From Cohnella sp. (GTDB taxonomy: Bacteria; Bacillota; Bacilli; Paenibacillales; Paenibacillaceae): a stretch of 64,000 nt of DNA. Positions 13,403 to 62,936 of this stretch are shown here, piece by piece. Both the position numbers and the translations under genes were made by a program. Within the stretch, counting starts at the first letter, position 1. Every line of letters starts with the position of its first letter. The DNA lies in contig JAQBPQ010000030.1 in NCBI GenBank assembly GCA_028287445.1, positions 1-64,000 on the forward strand, given 5' to 3'. The notes under the pieces are model-generated. The model saw only the letters and a program-made list of their open reading frames with translations. It was not told the DNA's origin and ran no database searches.

Positions 13403-13536
13403 ACGTTCATCCCCTGGCTGTATTCCTGATGCGGACACCCGCTTGGTTCTCAGGTTTAACTGGTGCTATGTTACCACATTCCGGATAGTTGCAAAAGCAT
13501 TCGCCTGTCCAACCGGAACAATAAACAAAATAAATC

Positions 13537-13560
13537 GACCCCCGTCTCGCGACGAGGGTC
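13537..13560 (-). terminator. Orphan terminator-like hairpin upstream of rsmD
   Basis: GACCCTCGTC-GCGA-GACGGGGGTC (9 of 10 pairs) is followed on the minus strand by GATTTATTTTGTTTATTG. No minus-strand gene precedes it before the ccdC-like gene on the other strand. The 382-base gap 13403–13784 otherwise holds a plus-strand promoter for the ccdC-like gene and no convincing ORF. Confidence 0.5.
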
Positions 13561-13721
13561 TTCATGGGAGAGGAGAAACCGGACGAAGAGCTTATGGGGA
13601 AACGTAAGTCTTCTCCGCGGTTGTCCCCGGCACCTCTCGGCACCGGTACTATCATGGTGCACGGAACGCACGAAAAATATACACTTTCCGGGAAAAAATT
13701 CCGTCATCCTCGTAATCGGCG

Positions 13722-17366: not shown

Positions 17367-17410
17367 CATTAAATATGAACGTATGCGCAAGCGATCATAC
17401 GACCGTCGCG

Positions 17411-17508
17411 CTCCCGCCTTCCTACGCTGGTACTAACCAGATCAGGTATAAGGGTCTGCATCATAGGGATGCACTCTCAGCCGGCCGCATGTCCAGCTCC
17501 CCCGGGGC
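17411..17508 (-). ncRNA. TPP riboswitch (THI element)
   Basis: The minus strand carries the conserved aptamer parts in order: CCCCGGGGGAGC, GGCTGAGAGTGCATCC, GACCCTTATACCTGATCTGG, TTAGTACCAGCGTAGGAA. The CUGAGA and ACCUGAUCUGG boxes are diagnostic for thiamine pyrophosphate sensing. It stands in the leader of the thiY–thiamine-binding–thiX–thiZ operon and is followed by an intrinsic terminator. With these elements the 445-base gap 17275–17719 is largely accounted for. Confidence 0.97.
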
Positions 17509-17544
17509 TTATGGAATTGTCGAAACCTTCTTCGTTCCCCCCTT

Positions 17545-60264: not shown

Positions 60265-60320
60265 ACAAGTATAAACGGCTGTCGCCGTCCTTGGATGGCA
60301 GCATACGTTTATGTCGGTGA
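60265..60320. repeat. Structured intergenic repeat element, copy 1
   Basis: ACAAGTATAAACGGCTGTCGCCGTC, then a variable hairpin, then CGTTTATGTCGGTGA. The outer stem ATAAACG/CGTTTAT (7 bp) encloses an inner stem GCCGTC-CTTG-GATGGC. It is followed at 60319–60364 by a second long hairpin (CGTTTTCAGAAAAGTA / TACTTTCTGAAACG). It lies between the ftsW terminator and the convergent asp23 terminator. A near-identical framework is at 62547. Orientation and function unknown. Confidence 0.8.
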
Positions 60321-60367
60321 CGTTTTCAGAAAAGTACAGGTGACAACTTATACTTTCTGAAACGTTC

Positions 60368-60397
60368 AAAAAGGGCCAACCCGATGGCTGGCCCTTT
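60368..60397 (-). terminator. Terminator of the second Asp23 gene
   Basis: On the minus strand, AAAGGGCCA-GCCATCGGGT-TGGCCCTTT followed by TTG. Confidence 0.9.
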
Positions 60398-60404
60398 ACC
60401 TCAC

Positions 60405-60785
60405 TTACTTTACCCGGTTCAATTCTTCGATTTCCTCATCCTTGAAGGTGACGCCTTCCACCTTCACGTTCACTTCGACCACGTGAAGGCCGGTCATGTT
60501 CTCGACGGTTTCCCTGACGTTATCCTGCAAGCGGCGGCCGACCTCGTGGATTGGAATACCGTATTGGACGACGATGCGCAAGTCGATGGCCGCCTCCACT
60601 TGGCCGACTTCGACGGAAACGCCCTTCTGTGCGTTGCGGCCGCTGAGCCGTTTGGCCAGTCCTTCCGATATACCGCCCGACATGGCGGCGATGCCCGGCG
60701 TTTCCAACGCCGCGAGCCCGGCGATGGTGGCGACAACGTCATCGGATATACGAATGAAACCTGCTTGCACCAATTCTTCCGTCAT
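60405..60785 (-). CDS. Asp23/Gls24 family protein, second paralogue
   Basis: 126 residues from ATG 60785 (MTEELVQAGFIRISDDVVATIAGLAALETPGIAAMSGGISEGLAKRLSGRNAQKGVSVEVGQVEAAIDLRIVVQYGIPIHEVGRRLQDNVRETVENMTGLHVVEVNVKVEGVTFKDEEIEELNRVK), with GGGAGAG upstream; the track GTG at 60794 is too close to that site. It resembles the YqhY/AmaP-associated branch rather than the YloU type at 25778. No AmaP membrane partner is seen beside it. Monocistronic, with its own terminator. Confidence 0.88.
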   Translation of the reverse strand: MTEELVQAGFIRISDDVVATIAGLAALETPGIAAMSGGISEGLAKRLSGRNAQKGVSVEVGQVEAAIDLRIVVQYGIPIHEVGRRLQDNVRETVENMTGLHVVEVNVKVEGVTFKDEEIEELNRVK

Positions 60786-60961
60786 GGCGGCCACTCTCCC
60801 GAACCTTTAATGTTTTCATTGTACTGGAAGAACCCGCCAGAAGCAACCGATTCCACTTCTCTTCCCGCCTGCCGGCCGCATTTACTTGACTACGGCTTTT
60901 CGCTATAGTTTAGGAGAAAATGTGATGTCCTCCCTATTTGACTACAACGAGGTGTCTAGAC

Positions 60962-62020
60962 ATGAAAAAGCTGTTCTTCCCCCTGCTGATCGCTGCTTTC
61001 GCTCTAAGCGCAGCCGCTCATTTTCTCCATTTCGGTGCGATTCCGGAGTTTATCCTGTCCGCCGTTGCGATTGTTTTCGTAGCCGGTTTCCTAGGCAAAG
61101 CGACTGAATCGGTCGCCCATTATGCCGGCCAGCGTTTGGGCGGCTTTCTCAACGCCACCTTCGGCAACGCGGCGGAGCTGATCATTTCTATTTTCCTGAT
61201 CAAAGAAGGATTGTTTGATATTGTCAAAGCCAGCTTAACGGGCTCGATCATCGGCAATCTGCTGCTCGTGCTTGGCGCCAGCGCCTTGGCCGGCGGCCTC
61301 AAATACAAAGAGCAGAAGTTCAACATCCACCTGGCCGGCCAGAATGCCTCTCTTATGTTGCTGGGGATCATCGCGCTGTTTATTCCGGCCGTATTCGTGA
61401 AAACGGAAAAATTCCCGGCCAACGAAACGTTAACGCTGAGCCTTATTGTGGCGGGCTGTCTGATCCTCGCCTATGTGGGCTGGCTGATTTATTCCATGTT
61501 CACGCATAAGGATTTTCTGGAAGACCACGAAGACACTCAGGCCGATCACGGAGAGGAACCGGCATGGTCTCGCAACAAGTCCATCCTGTATCTGGTGCTC
61601 GCCACCGTTATGGTAGCTTTCGTGAGCGAATGGCTTGTCCGTACGCTGCACGTTTTCACCGACCGGTTCGGTCTTTCGGAGTTATTCGTCGGAGCGTTCC
61701 TCGTGGCCATCATCGGTAACGCCGCCGAGCACAGCGCAGCAATCATGCTGGCGATGAAAAACAAAATGGGCGCCGCCGTTGAAATCGCCGTAGGCAGCAG
61801 TCTTCAGATTGCACTGTTTGTCGCACCTGTGCTCGTATTCATCAGTCTTCTGTTCAACAAACATATGAACCTGATTTTCTCGACCATTGAACTGGCGGCC
61901 ATCGCCGTTGCCGTTCTAATCGCCACCTCAATCTCACGAGACGGCTCCACCACTTGGTATGAAGGCAAACTGTTGCTGATCGTTTACATCATTCTGGGTG
62001 TTGCTTTTTATTTCGTGTAA
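60962..62020 (+). CDS. cax: Calcium/proton antiporter CaxA/ChaA type
   Basis: 352 residues from ATG 60962 (MKKLFFPLLIAAFALSAAAHFLHFG), with GAGGTG upstream. About eleven membrane spans. The two inverted alpha repeats are clear: GGFLNATFGNAAELIISIFLIKEG near 62 and VGAFLVAIIGNAAEHSAAIMLAMKNKMGAAVEIAVGSSLQIALF near 250, both holding GNAAE with the ion-coordinating Glu. A polar central loop (HKDFLEDHEDTQADHGEEPAWSRNK) is acidic, as in other Cax proteins. Function by family: Ca2+ export against H+. Followed by a terminator. Confidence 0.93.
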   Translation: MKKLFFPLLIAAFALSAAAHFLHFGAIPEFILSAVAIVFVAGFLGKATESVAHYAGQRLGGFLNATFGNAAELIISIFLIKEGLFDIVKASLTGSIIGNLLLVLGASALAGGLKYKEQKFNIHLAGQNASLMLLGIIALFIPAVFVKTEKFPANETLTLSLIVAGCLILAYVGWLIYSMFTHKDFLEDHEDTQADHGEEPAWSRNKSILYLVLATVMVAFVSEWLVRTLHVFTDRFGLSELFVGAFLVAIIGNAAEHSAAIMLAMKNKMGAAVEIAVGSSLQIALFVAPVLVFISLLFNKHMNLIFSTIELAAIAVAVLIATSISRDGSTTWYEGKLLLIVYIILGVAFYFV

Positions 62021-62026
62021 TCGCTA

Positions 62027-62051
62027 AGCGGGCTAGCCCCGCCCTTTTTTT
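62027..62051 (+). terminator. Terminator of cax
   Basis: GCGGG-CTAGC-CCCGC followed by CCTTTTTTT, seven bases after the stop. Confidence 0.85.
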
Positions 62052-62068
62052 GGTGGAACGCAACCTAT

Positions 62069-62101
62069 AAAAATGACGGTCGACCACAAGGTCAACCGTC
62101 A
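62069..62101 (-). terminator. Terminator of ylaN
   Basis: On the minus strand, TGACGGTTGACC-TTGT-GGTCGACCGTCA followed by TTTTTAT. Confidence 0.92.
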
Positions 62102-62131
62102 CAAATTCGAAGATAGCGGAGCACGATTCGG

Positions 62132-62428
62132 CTACTCTATTTTTTGATTCAATGCTTCGTACAACAAGGCCAAATTTCGTTCCAGCTGACTGACCAGCAG
62201 CTTGCCGGAGCCTTCTTCCATCAATCCGGTACGTACCGCGAAATCGACCGCTCGAGAAAAGCCGTACATTTGCGTATCCAGCACTTCTTCGTAAAGCGGG
62301 CATTGGCGGGTTGTCAGATTTTCCATCTGGATGGAGATCAGCTTCTCGATTTTATCGGCATCATCCTGCAGCAGGCGGAGCGCCTTCTGCTTCAGGTTCA
62401 TAATCGTATCCGTCTCCAGTGAAGCCAT
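62132..62428 (-). CDS. ylaN: YlaN family protein (DUF1507)
   Basis: 98 residues from ATG 62428 (MASLETDTIMNLKQKALRLLQDDADKIEKLISIQMENLTTRQCPLYEEVLDTQMYGFSRAVDFAVRTGLMEEGSGKLLVSQLERNLALLYEALNQKIE), with GGGGGAG 7 bases ahead. The CPLYEEVLDTQMYGFSRAVDFAVR core is the YlaN signature. In Bacillus and Staphylococcus YlaN binds iron and the Fur repressor and is needed under iron limitation. Near ftsW, as in Bacillus subtilis, but on the opposite strand and with asp23 and cax in between. Confidence 0.93.
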   Translation of the reverse strand: MASLETDTIMNLKQKALRLLQDDADKIEKLISIQMENLTTRQCPLYEEVLDTQMYGFSRAVDFAVRTGLMEEGSGKLLVSQLERNLALLYEALNQKIE

Positions 62429-62546
62429 TCCCACTCCCCCTGTGCCATACTCCCATTCATCTTTATCCCTTCATATTAGACGAAATTGCAGTGAAGTACA
62501 AGGACGGGGCGTCATAGAGACAACCCGGTCACGAGATTAGCGAGGA

Positions 62547-62603
62547 ACAAGGATAAACGGCTGTCGCCGTCGTCTTCACGACGGTAGATGTTTATGTCGG
62601 AGA
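62547..62603. repeat. Structured intergenic repeat element, copy 2
   Basis: ACAAGGATAAACGGCTGTCGCCGTC, variable hairpin, TGTTTATGTCGGAGA. Outer stem ATAAACG/TGTTTAT, inner stem CCGTCGT-CTTC-ACGACGG. The 5' arm matches copy 1 at 24 of 25 bases and the 3' arm (TTTATGTCGGnGA) at all fixed positions, while the inner hairpin differs yet still pairs. It lies in the ylaN–HPr gap (62429–62696), next to the HPr terminator, as copy 1 lies next to the Asp23 terminator. Confidence 0.8.
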
Positions 62604-62649
62604 TCATTCAGAGATGAGCGCTTCAGCTTATAAATCCTGTATGATCGAC

Positions 62650-62681
62650 AAAAAGCACCCCGTCACGAACGGACGGGGTGC
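62650..62681 (-). terminator. Terminator of the HPr-like gene
   Basis: On the minus strand, GCACCCCGTC-CGTTCGT-GACGGGGTGC followed by TTTTTG. Confidence 0.93.
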
Positions 62682-62696
62682 CCTCAAACGCATGAA

Positions 62697-62936
62697 TTAT
62701 TCCATTACTTTGACGTTCAGGTTATGCTTGGCGAACACCGCCGCCACTGCTTGCTTAGCCTCTTCCGCGTCCGGACCGTGCACATGAAGCTCGTATGCAT
62801 GGTTGCCTACCAAAGTGGTGAACAGGCCCAGAATGCTTTTCACGTCGATGTACTTGTTTTCGGCTTGGAGCACGACGGAAGAACGAAATTTGTTCGCCGT
62901 TTGGGACAATTCGACGATTGCCGCGTTGTTGGACAT
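62697..62936 (-). CDS. Degenerate HPr-family protein lacking the phospho-histidine
   Basis: 79 residues: MSNNAAIVELSQTANKFRSSVVLQAENKYIDVKSILGLFTTLVGNHAYELHVHGPDAEEAKQAVAAVFAKHNLNVKVME. The helix TANKF and the regulatory-serine loop VKSILGLF align with HPr (QTASKF and LKSIMGVM), but the N-terminal strand and the GIHARPA active site are missing: the protein begins where His15 should be. GGAGGG 7 bases before the ATG supports this start, so it is not a mis-called N-terminus. It cannot be a normal PTS phosphocarrier. A Crh-like regulatory role, through the HPr kinase serine, is possible. It has its own strong terminator. Confidence 0.85.
   Translation of the reverse strand: MSNNAAIVELSQTANKFRSSVVLQAENKYIDVKSILGLFTTLVGNHAYELHVHGPDAEEAKQAVAAVFAKHNLNVKVME

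Follow-up and report, generated by a model that had tools for sequence, protein, structure and literature searches.

A structured, gene-free mobile repeat of the Paenibacillales with an intrinsic-terminator target

Two similar intergenic sequences lie in a 64,000-nucleotide stretch of Cohnella sp. DNA (GenBank assembly GCA_028287445.1, contig JAQBPQ010000030.1, positions 1 to 64,000; hereafter the window), and the question they raise is whether they are parts of RNAs or copies of something that moves. An initial annotation made from the letters alone had described them as a pair of structured repeats of 56-57 bases (60265-60320 and 62547-62603) and had offered three readings: a riboswitch-like leader, a small RNA or a REP/MITE-like repeat. 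The sequence agrees with both copies and with the arms given for them. Comparison of the sequences with those of related genomes gives good support to the view that the element is a dispersed, structured, gene-free mobile repeat that has the intrinsic terminator as its target, and not a riboswitch.

The unit proved to be longer than the annotated repeats, which are the left halves of full units of about 99 bp (Table 1). It contains no gene and consists of CAAG plus a pyrimidine (C or T), hairpin 1, the box GTCGGAGA and hairpin 2, the CAAG start being present in 132 of 144 distinct copies. The 19-mer ATAAACGGCTGTCGCCGTC has two matches in the window at ≤3 mismatches, compared with 0.01 expected from shuffles. 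Hairpin 1 is built of an outside stem (ATAAACG and CGTTTAT) and an inside stem (GCCGTC and GATGGC, or variants). These are the stems named by the initial annotation, and copy 1 folds as described when taken alone, whereas copy 2 forms its outer stem only when the flanks are included. Hairpin 2 is a long AT-rich palindrome with the forms GACGTTTCAG...CTGAAACGT or GATCATTCAG...CTGAATGATC in this genome. An AT-rich hairpin had indeed been reported to follow each copy, but it is the second half of the element and its best covarying helix, not a separate structure. Two copies of the same genome (L038 and L044) have a different palindrome (AAAACGGATTCGC...) in place of hairpin 2, perhaps owing to insertion of another small repeat. 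The left arm of hairpin 1 can also form a mini-hairpin, ACGGC-loop-GCCGT, which is mutually exclusive with the hairpin 1 fold. Its five pairs are all intact in 103 of the 144 distinct copies, and the pairing variants ACGCC/GGCGT and ACAGC/GCTGT occur. On the minus strand the mini-hairpin of copy 1 reads ACGGC-GACA-GCCGTTTATACTTG, which resembles an intrinsic terminator.

The compensating stem changes first seen between the two window copies hold throughout the family. Changes on both sides of a pair were found at 18 of 24 pairs in 68 copies from six genomes and at 22 of 24 pairs in 91 copies, against 11.6 and 12.9 pairs, respectively, in shuffled controls; slid controls gave far lower values. 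Counted by cells, the 91 copies contain 283 both-sided changes against 80 in the shuffles. The alignments were fitted to the model and thus the percentages are biased towards it, and the covariation pattern of hairpin 2 is already present in a plain MAFFT alignment. Support for the mini-hairpin on the fitted alignment (A2) was weak. The hairpins at both ends of the element are under structural constraint.

The genome from which the window comes is 78% complete in 278 contigs, several of which end inside element copies. In this genome a pattern search located 53 places, and a covariance model based on 27 copies returned 56 hits at a cut-off of E ≤ 0.01. For the two annotated copies, "pair" was thus the wrong word. 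On contigs C129, C170, C30 and C90 copies are lined up head to tail, repeating every 93-99 bp or so. Identity to the nearest copy is typically 96% in this genome and 96-98% across it, G026 and G029, from which we judge the spread in the lineage of the window to be recent. Copies are older in G024 (median nearest-copy identity 89%), G006 (86%) and G023 (82%, from three copies only). Among 61 relatives, 32 had matches, with copy numbers ranging from 0 to >60 per genome and a patchy distribution within the genus; the complete single-contig genomes G024 and G006 have 60 and 42 copies. Among named genomes, Cohnella luojiensis and Paenibacillus sp. LHD-38 carry the element according to an exact pattern scan. 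A broader model of 91 sequences detected the element in 122 of the 350 genomes scanned from the order, which belong to 17 of 49 genera and to four families. When 400 genomes sampled across the class were scanned, matches were confined to the family to which the window belongs, which also shows that few matches arise by chance. Other genera differ in the letters of the flanking stem (CAAGAAGAAAC, CAAGGTGAAAC, CAAGTAGAAAC) and keep the core ACGGCT..GCCGTCCTT and the two hairpins. Searches of phage, plasmid and viral collections with the element gave no match. Rfam had nothing relevant to the element, either in the window at the gathering threshold or in eight copies at E≤1. A literature search, from which subscription journals were out of reach, found no described repeat of this kind in Paenibacillaceae or Cohnella.

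Mobility was read from presence and absence of the element between species. The sister species G022 and G026 provided four occupied sites with clean or nearly clean empty counterparts. One empty site (ACGCAC^GAACCC) was exact, a second (GAAC^GCAAAAAAC) already had the terminator in place, and the other two differed by a few bases. At none of these four sites was a target-site duplication found. The two window sites are unoccupied in almost all of the 30 relatives compared; element-like sequence occurs at three ylaN-region loci among relatives, two of which are at the HPr-ylaN site. Many copies lie at loci that have nothing in common, they form species-specific subfamilies and tandem arrays, and empty sites are seen. 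All this supports the REP/MITE-like option of the initial annotation, which had taken many copies at unrelated loci as the sign of a mobile repeat and few copies with covariation in fixed gene contexts as that of an RNA; both the many loci and the covariation were found. The riboswitch-like leader lacks support, given a variable gene context, an orientation set by the terminator rather than the downstream gene and the lack of an Rfam match. A transcribed small RNA is conceivable, but no finding here calls for one.

The two window copies adjoin the terminators of minus-strand genes, as the initial annotation had noticed; the genes are an Asp23-family gene and a PTS-HPr gene. To define the target we counted features of the flanks of 115 single or rightmost copies, scoring an A-tract as at least six A residues in positions 2-10 and an inverted repeat as one starting 4-17 nt away. 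The right flank has an A-tract in 82 of the 115 copies (71%, versus 1.4% at random) and an inverted repeat in 86 (75%), compared with 16 (14%) for the left flank and 18.6% at random. Two automatic terminator detectors (58/124 and 53/115) were judged too strict, and the inverted-repeat test was used in their place. The right-flank profile is N-A-A-N-A-A-A-A, usually followed by a GC-rich inverted repeat, and the left flank is without preference. The A-tract and hairpin on the right are those of an intrinsic terminator read backwards, and the element thus usually lands on the 3' side of such a terminator. Along the direction of transcription of the terminated gene the order is hairpin, T-tract, NTTN and then the element, always in one orientation. 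Hence, a short conserved target lies beside one end of the element and a conserved terminal tetranucleotide is at the other, on the same strand. About one-quarter of the sites have no hairpin and are merely A-rich, some of these being apparent ribosome-binding sites. No recurrent neighbor gene was found within 1.5 kb of the copies, only housekeeping genes unrelated to one another. At one G026 locus (L275, 1189-1567) the element lies between a T-box leader/terminator (68.3 bits, below the Rfam gathering score) and a methionyl-tRNA-synthetase-like gene; the T-box-side site is empty in G022. In G024 three copies (L232, L237 and L238) are inserted into another repeated sequence (CATTCTACTT.GA.GAAAA...CCTATTGTGTA.CAAGTACGATCATAA), apparently a second repeat family, and two copies (L243 1463-1600 and L306 1165-1290) share about 40 further bases on the right (TTATTTGATCAAAATCTAATG.TTTTATATTTT) as a composite repeat.

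How would such an element move? The absence of target duplication disfavors DDE transposases, and single-strand or retro mechanisms are favored because insertion is one-sided and directional. We lean, at somewhat better than even chances, towards a non-autonomous element that is mobilized, in the form of hairpin-folded single strands of DNA, by a Y1-type enzyme acting in trans. On the terminator-sense strand the layout would be, from the 5' end, the target TTTNTTN, the first element boundary, hairpin 2, the box, hairpin 1, CTTG and the second boundary. An HUH/Y1 enzyme of the IS200/IS605-like type would excise and paste this folded strand by cutting after the NTTN of the target and after the terminal CTTG of the element. 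Known IS200/IS605 elements have subterminal hairpins, a flanking target tetranucleotide and a terminal tetranucleotide and use the lagging-strand template (PMC6006769). The mini-hairpin of hairpin 1 with TTTATGCTTG would mimic a terminator such that each insertion would rebuild the target at the far end; on the terminator-sense strand the end of the element itself reads ACGGC-GATA-GCCGTTTATGCTTG and is terminator-like. The head-to-tail arrays could be due to this re-creation of the target, if the enzyme accepts it. The AAG at the foot of the mini-hairpin could pair with the CTT of CTTG in about two-thirds of the copies; both are nearly invariant, so there is no covariation to be seen. Five of five copies of the true IS200 elements of the genus, which encode a 180-residue Y1 transposase, are found immediately 3' of an intrinsic terminator, in the same direction as our element, and thus Y1-type insertion at terminators exists in these bacteria.

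Several observations weigh against a Y1 enzyme. We found no Y1 transposase gene in the complete G024 and G006 genomes despite their 60 and 42 copies, nor in G019, G023 or the 78% complete genome of the window; no element copy lies within 1.5 kb of any Y1 gene; and the element differs at its ends from the resident IS200 and IS605 elements. Replication-strand counts in the two complete genomes lend the Y1 reading some backing without deciding the matter: with gene orientation as the control, the terminator-sense strand is on the lagging-strand template in 94 of 102 copies against 82% expected (p = 0.006), a modest excess that rises above the gene bias in G024 only (58/60, p = 0.001; G006 36/42, p = 0.34). 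The enzyme may be encoded by an intermittent element that has been lost from lineages having only old copies, and G024 and G006, whose copies are older, may have lost it. The young-copy genomes G022, G026 and G029 each have a Y1 gene, but the types and the ends differ. A different formulation, that of an undescribed, order-wide "terminator-homing" hairpin lineage having a target rebuilt by its own end and served by an enzyme other than a resident Y1 transposase or a group II reverse transcriptase (RT), seems to us possible although on the unlikely side.

Among the Y1, RT and IS110 families compared with copy number, no cognate enzyme was identified. The Y1 transposase was the obvious mobilizer and was set aside because gene presence does not track copy number, as was the RVT_1 reverse transcriptase, the presence of which does not track the element. 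IS110 was discarded upon being found in element-rich and element-free genomes alike. The IS605-type elements of the element-rich genomes G022, G029 and G021 were rejected as parents because their ends and target (TTTAAC) differ.

Three other routes to the same pattern deserve consideration. The element could be a cassette-like substrate of site-specific DNA recombination, in which a tyrosine or serine recombinase or an IS110-type enzyme acts at terminator-like att sites. This would fit the lack of target duplication, the resemblance of the element end to the target and the head-to-tail arrays, and all the element-rich genomes tested have IS110-type genes. However, IS110 is equally frequent in element-free genomes (15 in G035, six in G012 and five in G008) and missing from G032 despite its 10 copies. 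Moreover, the IS110 copies lack the element ends (two in G024, at L306 and L307, adjoin element fragments and are not parents), and the element does not contain the core motifs of integron attC sites (RYYYAAC/GTTRRRY), all of which leaves recombination an improbable explanation. Improbable, too, is a route through RNA, in which a transcript of the terminator-sense strand would be inserted 3' of terminators by a reverse transcriptase related to those of group IIC introns. Such introns insert at intrinsic terminators without an endonuclease and depend on replication-fork primers (PMC4424553). They share the target, the orientation and the lack of target duplication of our element, and RT genes are found in most genomes of the genus. 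Despite these likenesses, G023 has no RT gene with 16 copies, and G022 and G026 have just weak RT fragments although each exceeds 60 copies, some of which are 98% identical. Group II domains and an Rfam match are lacking in the element, and deleted copies often retain both ends rather than being 5'-truncated.

Selection by the host is a still less probable cause of the pattern. The element would then be a useful RNA or 3'-end structure (a backup terminator, an insulator or a small RNA) retained at terminators, as the strong covariation of both hairpins, the order-wide conservation and the terminator-like mini-hairpin might suggest. Yet copy number varies from 0 to >60 among species of one genus, empty sites are common, the neighboring genes are unrelated and the A-rich sites without hairpins, including the apparent ribosome-binding sites, account for about one-quarter of copies; hairpins are also conserved by mobile elements for the sake of their transposase. 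The idea that the family is a chance likeness or an artefact of fragmented metagenome assembly, for which the 278 contigs ending in part within copies could be cited, has virtually no probability: it is refuted by the two complete single-contig genomes, the named genomes also contain the element, and the matches in the class-wide sample fall in one family only.

Comparison with known systems places the element nearest to PATEs and the ends of IS200/IS605. Like these it is gene-free with a hairpin at each end, makes no target duplication, recognizes its target on one side and has a terminal tetranucleotide; it may also share their bias for the lagging-strand template, which in our element is weak. 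It differs from PATEs in that no parent insertion sequence with matching ends and no cognate Y1 gene were found, in having the T-tract behind a terminator as its target and in its deep conservation across an order. As no parent with matching ends was found, which is a defining feature of PATEs, we do not file it as a PATE and say only that it works like one. REP/BIME sequences with RAYT (TnpA_REP) are likewise dispersed intergenic palindromes, often clustered and tied to gene 3' ends. Their hallmarks are a palindrome of 20-40 bp that bears a GTAG or CGTC tag at its foot and a RAYT gene (PMC3733652, PMC6006769), whereas our element is a 99-bp unit of two different hairpins with a defined insertion target, its consensus lacks the foot tag, no RAYT gene lies beside the copies and Y1 is absent from many element-rich genomes. 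The Gram-positive MITEs bcr1 and RUP and the BOX elements are also short, non-coding, present in many copies and patchy among strains, and BOX shares the modular and structured character. The DDE-type MITEs (bcr1 and RUP) differ in that the element has neither terminal inverted repeats nor target-site duplication and has a one-sided terminator target. Group IIC introns insert 3' of terminators in the gene sense, again without target duplication, but the element has 99 nt with no ribozyme core and no RT open reading frame, and RT genes do not track it. Integron attC cassettes share folded single-strand sites, head-to-tail arrays and one-sided insertion; unlike them, the element has no attC core motifs or cassette gene and is scattered at ordinary terminators.

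The coordinates of the features are collected in Table 1. Elsewhere in the window Rfam gave matches to a ylbH leader (RF00516) at 13527-13620 (+) and a TPP riboswitch (RF00059) at 17402-17513 (-).

Table 1 Element copies and adjoining features in the window (positions of the window) and terminators upstream of IS200 (positions within each locus)
Feature	Position	Strand	Basis or remark
Element copy 1, full unit (from the CAAG end through hairpin 2)	60266..60365	+	Covariance-model match, 97.9 bits, E 3.2e-15
CAAG terminal tetranucleotide, copy 1	60266..60269	+	Sequence
Hairpin 1, copy 1	60271..60312	+	Outer 60271-60277/60306-60312; inner 60284-60289/60294-60299
Left-arm mini-hairpin ACGGC-TGTC-GCCGT, copy 1	60275..60288	+	Sequence; arm pairing in 144 copies
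Hairpin 2, copy 1 (AT-rich palindrome, strongest covariation)	60320..60365	+	Sequence, folding, covariation
Copy 1 target: bidirectional terminator of Asp23-family gene	60366..60397	-	A-tract 60368-60372; stem 60373-60378/60389-60394; sequence
Asp23-family gene, copy 1 adjoins its terminator	60405..60794	-	PF03780
DUF1507 (YlaN-like) gene	62132..62434	-	Copy 2 is flanked by the promoter region of this gene and the HPr terminator
Element copy 2, full unit	62548..62645	+	Covariance-model match, 87.6 bits, E 3.0e-13
Hairpin 1, copy 2	62553..62595	+	Outer 62553-62559/62589-62595; inner 62567-62573/62578-62584
Terminator-like mini-hairpin GACGGCGACAGCCGTT then TATCCTTGTT, copy 2	62556..62571	-	Terminator scan
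Hairpin 2, copy 2 (GATCATTCAG...CTGTATGAT)	62602..62645	+	Sequence, alignment
Copy 2 target: terminator of PTS-HPr gene	62650..62683	-	Sequence; terminator scan
PTS-HPr family gene, copy 2 adjoins its terminator	62697..62936	-	PF00381
Terminator (hairpin, T-tract, TTG) upstream of IS200, loci L181, L182, L183, L186 and L191	around 1290-1345	transposase sense	

Small non-autonomous repeats are a known kind of element, whereas this family, its target and its self-renewing end appear to be undescribed in the sources searched. Small repeats of Gram-positive bacteria are poorly catalogued, and this family is present in about one-third of the sampled genomes of its order. In it the target of a mobile element is tied, in a defined geometry, to the intrinsic terminator, a universal signal of gene expression. 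Sites beside terminators would be a harmless niche, which may explain how a genome comes to carry dozens of copies, and the insertions would alter the region just past terminators, where readthrough and the 3' ends of transcripts are set.

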